DNA of 36,089 bases from a virus. The DNA lies in the IMG/VR virus record IMGVR_UViG_3300033153_007919, positions 1 through 36,089 of that record; one strand, written 5' to 3'. This document shows, piece after piece, positions 1,562-36,089 of the stretch. The stretch's first letter is position 1, and every line of letters begins with the position of its first letter. The notes beneath the pieces were generated by a model, which did not search any database, had not been told where the DNA came from, and saw nothing but the letters and a program-made list of their open reading frames with translations. A program made the translations under genes and the position numbers.

Positions 1562-4500
1562 TTAAGATAATCTATGTATTGAGAAAATATTTCAAACACT
1601 TCATCAATCAAGTGATATATCACTTCAACTACCCTGATATAATGTTACAGTTAAAACATCTGAAGCTGATAAAAATATTACCTCATTTATATTTAATGTA
1701 AATTTATTTCATGAGTTATTAGATGTATCAAAATGTGCTTCTGCTATAGATGTACTACCTTTTTTTAATTTAAGGAAATAAAATGTATTTTTAAGAGGTG
1801 GTAAAACTTTTACATTAATTTGATAATATCAATCATTACCAGCAGTAAAATCATAATTAGTAGAACTATCAAATTCATTATCTCAATCAAAACTTTCTGT
1901 ACTAAATTCAAGTTTAGTATCAGCTCAAGTTCATATAGTTTGGTTTGAACCTAAATAAGCCCTTACTCTACTAGTAAATCAAACAGCTCAACCTCAACCA
2001 GCATCTTGAAAAGTAGGAGCTTCTCATACTCAATTACTTGTTAATACTTGGTCTGCTGTTCATACTGCGACTGTATCAGCTGTTCAATCGGATGCCCACG
2101 TTATAAGTTCTCAGTCTGTTCAATCTGCTAAATCAGCTACATCTACATTACTAAGTGAGTTTCAAGTTCAGTTAGCATCAAATGTTTTGTTTGTAAGGGT
2201 GTCTGTACTATCTGCTGTTATTCCTGCATTATCATCTACATATTTTTTAGTAGCTGGTTCATAGTCAGCGTCAGGTGTGAATGCATCAGTGTTATCTAAT
2301 TCTAGTACATTTGATTTTAAAGCTAGTGCTGATAAGTCTTCATCTCAAGTATTAGTTCAAGATAGATTATTCGCTGATATATCTCAAGAAAATGTTTTAG
2401 CTCAAGCTATTGTTTGTGCTTGGTCATCTATATGTCAATAAGTAATTGTACTTTGTGCTAATTGTAAGTTTGATAACCCGTTATGGTCTGTTGGTACAAC
2501 CCCACTTACTGAAACTTGTGATGCTCTTGTTCATAATAAATATGTGATAGCTGTTAATTGTACTTTACCTGTAGTTCAATAAGAAGAACTAGAAGAATAA
2601 GTAAGTCTTGTGTATGCTACACTTTCAGGAGATGCTGCAGTAAAGTTTGCTAAATCTATACTTCTGAAATCCTCTGCTTCTGCTCATAATAATGTACTAT
2701 GTTCAGCTTGTGGTTGTATTAATATTGTTCTATATTTTTGACTATCTGTATCATCCGTTGTTGGTACTAATATTTGATAAACATTATAAAACTTACCTGT
2801 GCTTCATTCTGTTTCTACTCATGCTGATGGATTATAATTTATAAATCAAGCCCCAGTATATCTAAAAGGGAAACTTGCTGTTGTATCAAAATTTAATACA
2901 CTTCAACTATCTACAAAAGCTGTTGTATATGTTCATTCTATCCAAGCTGCTAAAGTTTCTTTTATATCTTCATCATAAATTACAGCAGAATCAAATCAAG
3001 GTGTTATTGCAGCATCTGTACTTGTATCTAAAGTATATGTTCATGCTGTAGCTCAACCCCCGCTACTTCTAAAAGTTCAAATTGTATTATGTAATACTAA
3101 ATGTGTTTCATAAGGCATAACTCAATGATATTCTATTAATGCAAATTTATCATTTGTTCAATAATGCGCAAAAGCTATTTGTACTGCACTAAAAGTCCAA
3201 GCTGTTGTACTCCAAGAAAAAGTCGTTCAATCAGTTGAATATAAGAAATAATTAGTATCTAATGTTGTATCATGTGCATCAGAAGTCCACGGACTTGATA
3301 AAGTCTTTTTTATTCATTGCCAGTAATATTCTATATCTCATGTAGAATGTGTTAATGTTACAGTTCTTGCTGTAGAATCATATTCTAATGTTAGATTATC
3401 TTGGTCAACAAAACCACTTAAAGATTTAGTATCTGCATCTGCTTGTCTTATTTCAGCTAAAGCTGATTCTACCTCAGAAGAATTATATAAACTTCATGAA
3501 TCTGTTATTGGTACATCAACTGCATCTTGGTCTCAAGTATTAGTTCAACTTGTATTTCAAACAACTGTATTTTGTGCTGAAGTTATATGAAAATATTCTC
3601 AAGCAGTTCAACCTTGTAATCAAGAAAGAGTATTATGCTCTGTTACTCATGCTGGAGAAAATGTTTGCTCAAATGCTGACTGAATAGTTCAAGTAGCAGC
3701 ATTTAATACAAACGCTATTCTTCATATAAGAACACCGTTTACTTGTAATCTTAATGGTAATACAGTTGGTGGTGATTGTGTTAATGCAGAATCTAAAGAA
3801 TTATGTTCATCTGTACCATATACCATAACTATTCAATCTGATACATCTTGATAAAACCATTGTACTCACCATTTAGCATTTCATATAGTTGTAAGAGTTC
3901 AAGAATCATCATATTGAGTGTTGTCCCATTGTGTTTGTGCATTTGCTTCAATTCATGCTGAACTATATGTATCATAACTATCAGTTCAAGATGTATCAAT
4001 TGCTGATATTTCATACTCATGAAATCAATCAAACATACTTCATGCACTTAATGTTACGTTCCTAGTTCCTATTTCTCATAATATAATTCAACCTATTCTA
4101 TCTGCTCTATCAAAAGGTTCAGTTTGGAAAAGTCTATTAAATACATGCGATGCAGTATCTCTAGCTATTTGATGTGTTTCTAATATATATAGTGTGTCAT
4201 CTTCATTTACAGCACTTCATAATCTAAATTCTGAATGAAAATTAAAGTTGTCAACATCTCTAGTTACTACTTGTGGAGTTCAAGCATTATATTCTACTCA
4301 TATATATCTAACAGAATCAGTAGGTATAACTAAATCAGTATCAGCCCCTATTTCAAAAGAATATTTATTTGCTAAATGTGCATCAGAACTTCTAATAAAT
4401 CAAGACAAGCCTGCAACTCTAATAGTATTACTTCATATATCAGTTATTTCTCATCAATCTACTAATCACGCTGAGTTAGTTATTCTACCACAGTCTCATA

Positions 4501-5131
4501 TATTATCTATATCAGGTGTTCATATAACTGGTATAGATACAGTAGTACCGTCTTGTGTTCAAGTATGGTTAGCTCTATCAAACGTATCATCCTCTATTGT
4601 TTGAGGGTCATAAACTGCTTTAGTCATATCTCAGTCTAAATCAGCATTTACTATAGGATTAGCTGCGTCTGTATCATCAACTGTTATATTAGTTCATCAG
4701 ACAACTGCTTGTACTACTCAAGGGTCTCATTGTGCTCAAGTATCACCTGTATCTCATTTATCTCAAGTATCTCATTTATCTCAAGTATCACCCTTATCTC
4801 AAGTGTCTCACTTGTCTCAAGTATCTCATTTAGCTCAAGCGTCTCAAGTATCTCCTTTTTCTCACTCAGGTATCCCAAAATCAAGTATTGCATCATTTTC
4901 TGTACCTGAATTATCTACAGTAGCATCTTCTCATGGAGATAATGTTGTTGTATCTCACACATTTACTGTAGCAGCGTCTCATTGGTCACCTTTTAATTCA
5001 GTCTTTAATGCTCTTTTAGTTGTTCAATCAGAACTTTGTGTAGTATCTGATACATCAACATAAGGGACAAAATCAGTGTCAACTACCGTACCTTGTTCCA
5101 AATCCATTATTTTAATTCTCTCGTTAGCCAT
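1562..5131 (-). CDS. Tail fibre with collagen-like stalk and C1q-like tip (1189 aa)
   Basis: The frame is open for 1189 residues only if TGA is read through. A short N-terminal region (MANERIKIMDLEQGTVVDTD, likely virion attachment) is followed at about residues 90-138 by 16 Gly-X-Y triplets such as GDTGDKGDT, a collagen-like stalk. A long repetitive Thr/Ser/Asn/Asp-rich body follows. Near residues 1010-1070 are fibre-typical segments (DGELITWASDGTADT, ADQVLTSNG). The last ~100 residues (FYFLKLKKGSTS, FTLNINEVIFLSASDV, VTLYQGS) resemble a C1q/TNF-like jelly roll, usual for trimeric fibre tips. Its job is inferred to be host recognition. It is the largest stretch of the virion operon, between a 66-aa protein and the XkdW-like gene. 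High TGA use makes it unreadable in standard-code hosts. Confidence 0.88.
4718..4864 (-). repeat. Collagen-like Gly-X-Y coding repeat (16 triplets)
   Basis: Nine-base units encoding G-D-T or G-D-K repeat in tandem within the fibre gene. Of the 17 glycine positions, 14 are TGA, two are GGT and one is GGA. Interchange of TGA with GGN at equivalent positions inside one repeat is internal proof of the Gly assignment. Confidence 0.95.
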
Positions 5132-26028: not shown

Positions 26029-26409
26029 TTATTTATTATTAAAGTATTCTTTTATTTCATTTATATCATAGCAAAGTATATGAGTTCATTCTTGTTCTAT
26101 GATATGTTTTTTATGCTCTATTTGTGTTTTTTCTCTTTTTAGGTAGTTAGGTAGCCTTCATTCTTTTTCTAGTCTTATTTCGGATTTAATCCATTTATCA
26201 TATTCTTCTTTATTTTTTTTAACTTCTATTCAATAAAAGTTTCATTTGTATAAGCATATAATATCAGTGGCTCATGTACTTTGTAGTGTCATCATGTGAT
26301 TATATATCCCTTTTTTTATTAATACCTTTCAGCTGTTTAATTGTTCAACATAAGCTCAAAGTGATTTTAAATAACTAACTATTTGTTTTTCAATTGTTTT
26401 TTCTTTCAT
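26029..26409 (-). CDS. VRR-NUC domain nuclease (126 aa)
   Basis: The layout is that of stand-alone phage VRR-NUC nucleases (PD-(D/E)XK fold): EKQIVSYLKSLGAYVEQLNS at the N-terminus, catalytic GATDIICLYKGNFYGIEVKK around residues 45-64 (Asp then E-V-K), and C-terminal HKKHIIEQEGTHILCY. Glycines in GATD and GIEVK are TGA. These enzymes cleave branched or structured DNA and act in recombination/replication. Its start overlaps the end of the Rha gene by 31 bases in another frame. Confidence 0.8.
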
Positions 26410-27119
26410 AATTTAGGTTTAAAATCTAAGCTTTCTACTAATTTACTAACTTCTTCTTTAGCATAACGGTAAATTTCTTTATATGGTAATTTTCTTTTTA
26501 TTCAATCTATAATAACATTTTTACATCTATCATCTACAATCATTATAAATCATAAATCTCTAACTCATGATAAATCCCTTATTGGTTTTCACTCTTTACA
26601 ATCAACTATAAACTGCAAATGCTTATTAGTCATTTGTGTATATGTAGAGTATAAAGGATATGTTATTGGCTTTCATCTTTCTTTTTCTGCATATTCTGTT
26701 AATTGCTTTATAACATCAGTTTCTTCTTTCCTAAGTATTTTTCATTGTTTTCTAGATTCTATCCAACTGTTATTGCTTTGATTTTGTAATACCTTCTTCA
26801 TTAAAAAAAACTGTTCAACAAATTGTTCTTGTATCTCTAGAGCTTTTTTATAATTTCATAGTTGCATTATTAAAATTGAGAAAGCAGATTCATTTATTAA
26901 AAATCATCTAAATTCTATTTTTGTCTTTCAATGTTTAAAAGTTGTTTCTATAAATTTTTTAGAATATTTTAGTGGTAACTTTCTTCCCTCTAAATTTTTA
27001 ATTAATTTATAAATAGTTTTTAATAAATGTATATGCTTTACTTCTAATTTCTTTGCGATTAATTCACTTGTTGTAAAAATTTCTCATTTCTTAACTTGTA
27101 CTAATTCATTTTTTAACAT
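26379..27119 (-). CDS. rha: Rha-type antirepressor/regulatory protein (246 aa)
   Basis: The N-terminal domain follows the Rha pattern: FTTSELIAKKLEVKHIHLLK (helix-turn-helix-like), FIETTFKHGKTKIEFRGFLI, NESAFSILIMQLGNYKKALE and IQEQFVEQFF. The C-terminal half (SWIESRKQGKILRKEETDVI, YPLYSTYTQMTNKHLQFIVD, RDLSGVRDLGFIMIVDD) resembles the C-terminal domain commonly joined to phage antirepressors. Proteins of this class relieve repression or otherwise regulate early phage genes. It overlaps the nuclease gene downstream, ending in TAG. Confidence 0.75.
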
Positions 27120-27156: not shown

Positions 27157-27423
27157 CTAATTATAATGCTTTTGCAAATATAAAATACAATCTTGTCTTA
27201 CTCAATATCCTCTTTTAAAAGCATGAGCTTCTTGGTGGCAATTTTCTCTGCAAAGCAATACTCATTGATTAACATTATTCCTATCTTTTCAATAATTACT
27301 TTCGCTTCAATAGTAGCAATGGTGGAAATCAAGTATTCAGCTACTTGTTCAACATATAACACAACATCAATCACGGTTAAAAATTTCTTCTTTTGTCTTC
27401 TTACTGAATTTTGCTTTAATCAT
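27157..27423 (-). CDS. HNH endonuclease (88 aa)
   Basis: The HNH core is complete: FNRDGCCVICGTSSG with the first CxxC pair, LDFHHCYYG with the catalytic His pair, and VLLCRENCHQEAHA with the second Cys pair and final His. This zinc-supported HNH type occurs in small phage nucleases, some of which assist packaging or recombination. Here it lies in the early region and starts within the end of a 38-aa gene. It lacks the NUMOD motifs of the homing-type genes in this genome. Confidence 0.82.
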
Positions 27424-29969: not shown

Positions 29970-30710
29970 TTAAAGTATTCATAAATCTTTAGCTCTTTTA
30001 TTTCTCTCTTCTTGTGTCATAGTTTGTATTGGTTTTACTTCTTCTTTATTCCATTTACTACTATTTCATAACCATTTATGAAATCTTCGGCTTACATCAA
30101 ATGTTTTTTGCATTTGCCATAGTTCTTTTTTTCAATTAGGTTTTTTCTCACTCCAGTATAAATAAAATTCTTTTAATTCTTTTATAATATGTTCTTGTGT
30201 TGAATTATAATTATCTGTAAAATATTTTAAATCTATTTTTTCTTTTATTAATAATTCAAGATTTTGAGTAGCGACTTTAGGAGCGACCACTATATTATTT
30301 TCTTTATTAACATTATTTTCTTTATTAACATTATTAGTTGTTGTTACTTGTTTGTTACTTGTTTGTTGATGGCTTGTTACTTGTTTGTTATCTTCTGTGT
30401 TATTTCATTGATAGTCATCATAGTTATTTACCTTTACTATCGTATAACTAGCTTGTGATTTCTTTGTTATCTCTTGTGTTGATGTTAATTTGTCTAATGA
30501 TGTTCTTACTTGTTGTACTGATAATCCAGTTTCTTCTGATAACTTATTTAGTGATGTTAAATATTCTCATCTTTTAATATCTATTCATCTCCAAGTTTTA
30601 TCTTTGAAATTAGTTTTTAATAATATATGTAAGAATAATCTAAATGTATTTGGTTCATCATACCATTCCCATTCTATTATCTTACGATGTAATTGTATAA
30701 ATCATTCCAT
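29970..30710 (-). CDS. Replication initiator/replisome organiser, DnaD-like N-terminal domain (246 aa)
   Basis: The N-terminal domain GFIQLHRKIIEWEWYDEPNT, FRLFLHILLKTNFKDKTWRG, then IKRGEYLTSLNKLSEETGLS and VQQVRTSLDKLTSTQEIT is the winged-helix pattern of phage replisome organisers. A flexible linker holds a tandem NNVNKE repeat. The C-terminal part (WQMQKTFDVSRRFHKWLGNS, ~residues 200-225) resembles the partner-binding end. It recruits host helicase to the phage origin (family knowledge). It is preceded by a promoter and an attenuator-like leader at 30722-30842. The linker Gln/Asn/Thr-rich tract is typical. Confidence 0.8.
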
Positions 30711-30721
30711 AATTATATAAA

Positions 30722-30810
30722 TAAAAAAGTGCCAAACATTCGGACAAATGTTTGGCACCTAATACTAAAGTATTATAAATACTTATTTGTCCGACTATAA
30801 ATATTTATAC
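30722..30810 (-). ncRNA. Attenuator-like RNA B: loop-complementary terminator before the replication initiator
   Basis: On the minus strand, in order: TCGGACAAAT (30794-30785), hairpin AAGTAT-TTATA-ATACTT (30784-30768), then a 12-bp hairpin GTGCCAAACATT/AATGTTTGGCAC (30758-30729) with loop TGTCCG and six U. The loop with flanking stem bases (ATTTGTCCGA) is a perfect 10-base complement of the first element, so pairing there would open or lock the terminator. The replication initiator starts 18 bases after the hairpin stem. RNA A at 33318-33398 has the same architecture with different bases. Confidence 0.7.
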
Positions 30811-30814
30811 AAGT

Positions 30815-30842
30815 ATTATATTCATTTCCTAAAATAAAGCAA
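30815..30842 (-). promoter_or_regulatory. Predicted promoter of RNA B and the replication operon
   Basis: TTGCTT (30842-30837), 16-base spacer, perfect TATAAT (30820-30815). Spacing and hexamers match the promoter of RNA A. Confidence 0.7.
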
Positions 30843-30843
30843 G

Positions 30844-30870
30844 AAAAAAGTATAAAAATTAATTTATACT
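30844..30870 (-). terminator. Intrinsic terminator upstream of promoter B
   Basis: AGTATAAA/TTTATACT form a perfect 8-bp stem around TTAATT, followed by six T on the minus strand. It is the second of two terminators behind the structured RNA gene. Confidence 0.6.
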
Positions 30871-30892
30871 ACTAGTTAGTAATGTATTAGTA

Positions 30893-31050
30893 ATAAAAAA
30901 TTCTATTTCGTAATGAGTGATAGAATTTTTTATACCTCTCAGCTTAGGTTTTCTTTACAGCTAAGTTATATCGCCCACCAAGTAGGCTATAAGCAAAATA
31001 TAATTGGAGCGTCCTCACGCATATATTTATAACTTAATTGTTTACGCTTG
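30893..31050 (-). ncRNA. Free-standing structured RNA gene C (~155 nt)
   Basis: A non-coding segment with its own promoter and terminator. Inverted pairs on the transcribed strand are TAAGTTATA/TATAACTTA (31036-31028 with 30970-30962), closing over two hairpins: GCGT-GAGG-ACGC (31020-31009) and GCCTAC-TTG-GTGGGC (30987-30973). A third hairpin, CTTAGCT/AGCTGAG (30965-30959 with 30944-30938), shares bases with the long-range stem, so the two exclude each other. The extreme 5' ACCAAG is complementary to CTTGGT in the second hairpin. No open frame or tRNA/6S/tmRNA pattern is recognised. It is G+C richer than its surroundings, which supports function. Confidence 0.65.
30895..30931 (-). terminator. 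Intrinsic terminator of RNA C
   Basis: AAATTCTAT and ATAGAATTT form a 9-bp stem around a 13-base loop, followed by a T run on the minus strand. The element is symmetrical and could stop transcription from either side. Confidence 0.65.
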
Positions 31051-31056
31051 GTATGT

Positions 31057-31085
31057 ATAGTATACTAATTTAAGAATTAATGCAA
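31057..31085 (-). promoter_or_regulatory. Predicted promoter of RNA C
   Basis: TTGCAT (31085-31080), 17-base spacer and TACTAT (31062-31057); TATACT overlaps at 15-base spacing. It sits directly behind the terminator of the lysis operon, so RNA C is transcribed on its own. Confidence 0.6.
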
Positions 31086-31108
31086 CAAAAAAAGGCAAAA
31101 GATGCCTT
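31086..31108 (-). terminator. Terminator at the end of the lysis operon
   Basis: AAGGCA/TGCCTT stem around TCTTT, followed by seven T on the minus strand, 72 bases after the stop of the last lysis-region gene. Confidence 0.75.
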
Positions 31109-31179
31109 AATTTGCTTGTATTTTATTTCACTAATTTCTTAGCTATTTAACTATATGAATTTATTTAGATTTTACAAGT

Positions 31180-31317
31180 TTACTTTTTAGGTTTAAATAT
31201 TTTAATATATGATATAAGTAAAATAAATATAAATCTAGTTAAGAAAGTTTTATTAAATACTTTCAGTTGTTTATCTATACTTCATTTAATTCATTTTTCT
31301 ATTAGTTTTTTGTTCAT
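31180..31317 (-). CDS. Tiny membrane protein at the end of the lysis operon (45 aa)
   Basis: MNKKLIEKGIKGSIDKQLKV is followed by a hydrophobic segment TRFIFILLISYIKIF and a basic KPKK end. One membrane helix with positive flanks would fit a holin accessory or antiholin. It is the last gene before the operon terminator. Confidence 0.5.
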
Positions 31318-35577: not shown

Positions 35578-36089
35578 TTAGTTAATAAATTTCCAAATAA
35601 ATCAAAGTGTTTTATTTCTTTTTCAATTACAAACAGATGATATGTGATTATGCTTAATATTAAAAAATCTATTAGCATCAGATATACTATCCCAAGCTTT
35701 TATAAAATTTCAATCTAAATCATATTGTTTTACTTTTTTAGATTGTTTATTTAATTTTCATAACATTCAAAACATTGGATTTTTTCTTCATAATATTCTA
35801 AAGGCATGTTTATGATTTTCTGAATATGTATTCCATTCTAAGTTTTCTACTCTATTATCTGTTTTATTTCAATCAATATGGTTAATTGTTTTTTTATTTT
35901 TCTTATTTATAATAAATGTAATTCATATTAACCTATGTACTAAAAAAGTTTTTCATTTTTTGTTTTTATTTAATCATACTGTTAAATATTTTTTTTTGCT
36001 ATCTATACTAAATTTTTTTATAATTCAATTATGTCATCAACTTCATTCTTTAGGAAGACTTTTAATTCTACCTAAATTACTAGCTTGGT
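35578..36089 (-). CDS. NUMOD4/HNH homing endonuclease, C-terminal part (start at 157 across the join)
   Basis: Continuation of the frame that starts at 157. It carries NHIDGNKTDNRVENLEWNTY (HNH_3 core; Gly of DGN is TGA, Trp is TGG), then HAFRILGRKNPMFGMLG and a NUMOD1-like C-terminus (SISDANRFFNIKHNHISSVC, NGKRNKTLGFIW). Domain order NUMOD4-HNH-NUMOD1 is the textbook arrangement for phage homing nucleases. Stop TAA is at 35580-35578, 11 bases before the DUF1353 start. Confidence 0.9.
35976..36089. repeat. Terminal direct repeat, right copy
   Basis: Exact copy of positions 1-114. See the left copy. Confidence 0.95.

Follow-up and report, generated by a model that had tools for sequence, protein, structure and literature searches.

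The longest noncoding gap of a code-25 phage genome (469 nt; positions 30711 to 31179) contains, on the minus strand at about 31052 to 30893, a feature that we read as a small, lineage-specific, stand-alone noncoding RNA gene whose product would act in trans. We hold this reading tentatively, at a little short of an even chance, and treat the stretch as an orphan sRNA candidate. The original prediction had proposed a free-standing, structured RNA gene. A free-standing noncoding unit is still the best reading, because the stretch lies between a terminator-like hairpin and the early operon, has a promoter-like site, ends in a hairpin with a U-run, is raised in G+C content, and is noncoding; "structured", however, was not supported. 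If transcribed, the feature would be an sRNA gene in a code-25 phage and would offer a handle on the timing of early genes, although its weight is limited by its being a single candidate for which no homologues were found.

The window analyzed here is the whole 36,089-nt virus record IMGVR_UViG_3300033153_007919, which carries 114-nt terminal direct repeats (1 to 114 and 35976 to 36089) and is therefore probably a complete genome. The gap is bordered on its late side by a 45-aa open reading frame (31180 to 31317), followed by a hairpin, T0, and on its other side by a DnaD-like gene with its ATG at 30710. Along the minus strand, T0 comes first, followed by TTGCAT, 15 nt, TATACT; the body of the putative RNA; T1 and a U-run; TTGCTT, 16 nt, TATAAT; T2 and a U-run (30758 to 30721); and the ATG at 30710. 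T0 separates the RNA from the upstream operon and resembles the terminator at the same junction in a sister phage, G012. The features referred to below are as follows.

31092 to 31108, minus strand: T0, terminator-like hairpin at the end of the upstream late/lysis-side operon (6-bp stem and T7 tail in a consensus scan; -7.3 kcal/mol)
31059 to 31085, minus strand: promoter-like site of the RNA, TTGCAT (31085 to 31080), 15-nt spacer, TATACT (31064 to 31059) (motif matrix, 10.25 bits)
30937 to 31052, minus strand: putative small RNA body, 116 nt, 36% G+C, containing helices that exclude each other (sequence reading)
30893 to 30933, minus strand: T1, hairpin ATAAAAAATTCTAT / ATAGAATTTTTTAT plus U-run, where the RNA probably ends (14-nt inverted repeat, 100%; -10.0 kcal/mol)
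30813 to 30840, minus strand: second promoter-like site, TTGCTT, 16-nt spacer, TATAAT, from which the DnaD-gene transcript may start (9.85 bits)
30711 to 30808, minus strand: leader of the DnaD-like gene, with T2 (30758 to 30729) and an upstream 10-nt loop complement (30794 to 30785) (hairpin scan, shuffles)
29970 to 30710, minus strand: DnaD-like helicase loader, downstream of the RNA (code 25; phrog_2514, E 1.1e-28)
26379 to 27119, minus strand: antirepressor/Rha-like regulator (protein scan)

The phage reads TGA as glycine

To our knowledge, metagenomes are the sole source of what is known about code-25 phages, and our literature searches found no paper on their noncoding RNAs. Under the standard code the genome gave only short open reading frames, and reading through TGA gave long genes on the minus strand. 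TGA fell at expected glycine positions, both in the collagen-like GDTGDKGDT repeats of the protein encoded at 1562 to 5131 and in the HRRGGKT of the terminase; judged by these positions, the phage uses code 25 (TGA as glycine) throughout its genome. Absconditabacteria and Gracilibacteria use this code (PMC10746230), and since TGA is read as glycine, the host probably belongs to one of these groups.

All recognizable genes of the phage lie on the minus strand. Besides the helicase loader and the regulator listed above, we identified a terminase, an HNH endonuclease, and a major head protein, and found no integrase among the proteins scanned. None of the 23 large genes has a Shine-Dalgarno motif, and across the whole genome gene starts are often preceded by an A/T-rich sequence like TTAACTAATA. 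A terminase 67% identical to that of this phage was found on a contig (L040) of a MAG labelled Robiginitomaculum, which is probably a misbinned phage contig of a code-25 host.

Promoter-like sites in the gap

The motif TTTGCAA-N16/17-TATAMT recurs on the coding strand before genes of related code-25 phages (loci L028, L029, L030, and L021). Compared with shuffles it was enriched in L028 (5 sites versus 0.69 expected) and L030 (5 versus 0.66), and less clearly in the genome of this phage (4 versus 1.59). The same motif also occurs in this phage at 27177 and 33432 on the minus strand.

The RNA had been credited with a promoter of its own. A promoter-like TTGCAT/TATACT is indeed present and is like the motif of the related phages, but by our matrix, trained on nine sites from related and other phages and not on this one, it comes only about 21st genome-wide, and its 15-nt spacer is suboptimal. 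At a threshold of at least 9.8 bits, the 470-nt gap held three sites on the minus strand and none on the plus strand, compared with a mean of 0.19 in shuffles, of which 0 of 300 had three. We had this region in view when setting both matrix and threshold. Since the threshold was chosen after the scores had been seen, and since one of the three sites (31177) lies upstream of T0, this clustering counts as support for an RNA gene and not as proof.

Composition and coding potential

As predicted, the feature is richer in G+C than its surroundings: G and C make up 42 of the 116 nt of the body (36%), versus 21.5% in the other noncoding DNA (binomial P = 2e-4). In so A+T-rich a genome, no other compositional feature hints as strongly at an RNA gene.

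The stretch had also been described as lacking an open frame. Short frames do exist, and one might therefore suppose that the locus encodes a very small protein, through either a 24-aa frame starting with GTG or an 11-aa frame starting with ATG. A missing Shine-Dalgarno motif is no bar to this and is uninformative on coding, because all 23 large genes also lack one. However, the frames scored -0.46 (24 aa) and -0.21 (11 aa) per codon, below the 5th percentile of 24-codon windows from real genes (-0.05), and the neighboring 45-aa gene scored +0.05. The longer frame would moreover need a GTG start, whereas the large genes examined start with ATG, as they do by construction of the list. None of the frames has coding-like codon usage, the stretch is noncoding, and a small protein is scarcely credible.

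Pairings and predicted fold of the body

The inverted pairings of the original prediction, including two that exclude each other, were all present on direct reading; they lie on the minus strand, which the prediction had not named. A 9-bp long-range helix sets TAAGTTATA (31036 to 31028) opposite TATAACTTA (30970 to 30962), and CTTAGCT (30965 to 30959) stands opposite AAGCTGAG (30945 to 30938). These two helices use common bases and are thus mutually exclusive. The 5' end of the RNA, ACCAAG (31052 to 31047), is complementary to CTTGGT (30982 to 30977), the center of the hairpin GCCTAC-TTG-GTGGGC (30987 to 30973). The proposed pairing of the 5' end with the loop of an internal hairpin accordingly has its complement in place, but a complement as good arose in 483 of 5000 shuffles.

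The statistics of the fold were similarly close to chance. The body has a minimum free energy of -24.2 kcal/mol (z of -1.0 to -1.1), which 261 of 2000 dinucleotide shuffles equaled or bettered, and the 9-bp perfect inverted repeat was equaled in 14 of 300. The whole segment reached z = -1.74 with the terminator hairpin included, and in a genome-wide fold scan the outlying windows near the gap were those containing terminators. When compared with shuffles, the nested fold did not clearly stand out, and the switch helices did not either. Because the body fold, the 9-bp repeat, and the 5'-end complement stand at such chance levels, we consider the pseudoknot and the switch to be possible drawings of the predicted pairings and not findings. 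By eye we also considered an HDV-like nested pseudoknot and rejected it, as the hairpin expected after the second helix is absent and so is P4.

These values would suit a spacer that is inert or in decay, possibly left over from a lost gene, in which the inverted repeats arose by chance. Such a spacer would also fit with the failure of our searches to find a relative, with the absence of the element from the sister phage, and with the fact that 4% of all 116-nt windows in the genome are as G+C-rich as the body. It would not, however, readily explain why the stretch exceeds other noncoding DNA in G+C, why promoter-like sites occur on the coding strand only, or why terminator-like hairpins stand on either side, and we consider it rather unlikely.

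Terminators and the leader of the DnaD-like gene

Two tandem terminators had been expected behind the RNA. T1 does follow it directly, but the strong second one, T2, lies about 135 nt further on, beyond the coordinates of the feature. T2 is a 12- to 15-bp hairpin (-19.5 kcal/mol; 30758 to 30729, minus strand), and because its U-run ends about 10 nt before the ATG, it belongs to the leader of the DnaD-like gene and is not a second terminator of the RNA. The 14-bp stem of T1 was not listed by the consensus terminator scan. T1 is a weak hairpin, and since it is nearly all A/U, termination there is possibly leaky.

Within this leader, UCGGACAAAU (30794 to 30785) is the exact 10-nt complement of the T2 loop region AUUUGUCCGA (30749 to 30740), and neither of the two sequences recurs elsewhere in the genome. 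When the 145 nt separating T1 from T2 were shuffled, such a loop complement arose in 2 of 20,000 cases, which makes it a statistically firmer signal than the pairings of the RNA body. Because the upstream copy is predicted to fall largely within the apical loop of a different hairpin, a kissing-loop attenuator in the DnaD-gene leader is conceivable. Alternatively, the two 10-nt copies could be paired protein-binding sites (operators) in the DNA.

The feature itself could also work as DNA, its inverted repeats being protein sites in a DNA element, namely a replication origin, an attachment site, or a regulator-binding region. The position at the late/early junction, adjoining a DnaD-like helicase loader, would suit such an element, and there are more inverted repeats nearby. 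However, the gap contains no iteron, only two weak direct-repeat pairs; no integrase occurs among the proteins scanned; and the neighboring 30711 to 30890 would be a likelier place for DNA sites. We regard a DNA element at the feature as clearly improbable.

The chief rival to an sRNA gene, unlikely though it seems to us, is a leader at the 5' end of the early (replication) operon. The transcript would again start near 31052, but the body would act in cis, through alternative folds or through contact with RNA polymerase in the manner of put RNA, to let polymerase pass T1 and T2 into the DnaD-like gene. The feature is on the same strand as this gene and directly upstream of it, with two terminator-like hairpins between; two of its helices are mutually exclusive; and in G012 a TTGCAA/TATACT promoter of the same motif sits directly before the first early gene. 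There is also precedent, since the put RNAs of HK022, which are about 70 nt long with two stem-loops and are located downstream from early promoters, act in cis to suppress terminators (PMC9378689). Our feature is like put in being an RNA near an early promoter with terminators beyond it on the same strand, but the predicted folds contain no two-stem element near the start, and blastn among phages found no sequence similarity. Nor did any part of the body sequester T1 in the style of an antiterminator in the computed folds, and the early operon of G012 lacks such an element. Beyond T1 there is a further promoter-like site with a comparable score; because the DnaD-like gene could be transcribed from this separate site, the RNA is not required as that gene's leader.

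A bolder proposal joins the two regions. Here, a pseudoknotted RNA, in which ACCAAG/CTTGGT crosses TAAGTTATA/TATAACTTA, would switch to the CTTAGCT hairpin and, jointly with the loop complement in the DnaD leader, control the entry of polymerase into the replication operon as a new class of riboregulator. We judge this very improbable.

How the RNA might act, and known phage RNAs

If the feature is an sRNA gene, as we prefer, we infer that the TTGCAT/TATACT promoter would direct host RNA polymerase to initiate near 31052 and that transcription would end at T1, the A/U-rich hairpin, giving an RNA of 115 to 160 nt. Like other phage sRNAs, it would most likely work in trans, forming short base-paired contacts with a host or phage RNA. 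The natural regions for such pairing would be the 5' end and the A-rich loop that separates CTTAGCT from AAGCTGAG.

Three roles had been suggested for the RNA: a regulator, an anti-defense decoy, and a replication-related RNA. An antisense regulator of phage genes found no backing: the best duplex with a phage gene start (-29.8 kcal/mol; phage genes only) was matched by 96 of 100 shuffles. We also tried an antirepressor-targeting RNA like sar or 24B_1 and rejected it, as 168 of 300 shuffles paired equally well with the antirepressor-like gene at its start (27119). A replication RNA has a sole point in its favor, the position beside the DnaD-like gene. As for a decoy, the RNA could be an RNA anti-CRISPR (Racr) or otherwise mimic a host defense RNA. 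Solitary CRISPR repeats encoded by phages serve as RNA anti-CRISPRs (PMC10651486), and Absconditabacteria and Gracilibacteria depend almost only on type V-A CRISPR (PMC10746230); the hairpin CCTAC-TTG-GTGGG is faintly like a Cas12a handle stem. However, the Cas12a-type handle TCTAC-N3-6-GTAGA occurs nowhere in the genome on either strand. The feature resembles the Racrs of PMC10651486 in being a small phage RNA gene and differs in having no type V-A repeat-like core, and we find a decoy exceedingly doubtful.

Among known systems, PreS (LPR1) of phage lambda is an RNA of about 88 nt that acts in trans, regulates host dnaN, and depends on Hfq (reviewed in PMC12197685). Our feature shares with it a short, noncoding, phage-borne RNA with its own gene between operons; PreS has Hfq and a known target, whereas the feature is a candidate from sequence only, with no match in the phage collection. 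Lambda OOP RNA, which is antisense to cII (PMC12197685), is likewise a small RNA beside replication-initiation genes, but here the RNA and the neighboring genes share a strand and no antisense gene lies opposite. 6S RNA is also free-standing and of similar length, yet its covariance model (RF00013, 187 positions) had no match in the genome, although controls matched, and we rejected it.

Homologue searches and a sister phage

The RNA had been called one of unknown class, and searches of the Rfam/Infernal type bore this out. At gathering score, Rfam gave no matches in the whole 36,089-nt genome, and a permissive search of 30700 to 31120 returned only chance matches to miRNA and rliI families, far below gathering scores. 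ARAGORN found no tRNA or tmRNA genes. With blastn, neither the 186-nt element nor 801 nt around it gave anything significant against phages, and the 186-nt element gave nothing significant against plasmids. DNA patterns matched in IMG/VR only in unrelated, mostly G+C-rich, coding-looking sequence. The element was not found in 18 related viral records, and two single-sequence covariance models run over 25 loci matched only this genome itself.

A phage that shares the junction, G012 (IMGVR_UViG_3300002231_003970), was retrieved by its terminase and again by a DUF1353-like protein; a search with the lysis-side protein retrieved no junction-sharing phages. Its terminase is 75% identical to that of our phage in the best segment, and its DUF1353-like protein is 62% identical. 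Because the ends of the G012 record overlap by 17 nt, the junction can be read across them. It contains a terminator after the lysis-side genes and, about 200 nt on, the promoter directly before the first early gene. The stretch between these two is A+T-rich, and a counterpart of the RNA is absent from it. Since this sister phage lacks it, the RNA may be an accessory of our phage's lineage, or young, as far as the single comparison with G012 suggests.

The early gene of G012 (L028:77-153) is immediately preceded by a stable hairpin, AAGTCTT...AAGACTT, which lacks a U-run and stands just before the ATG. Both phages may share a 5' hairpin in front of their first early gene.
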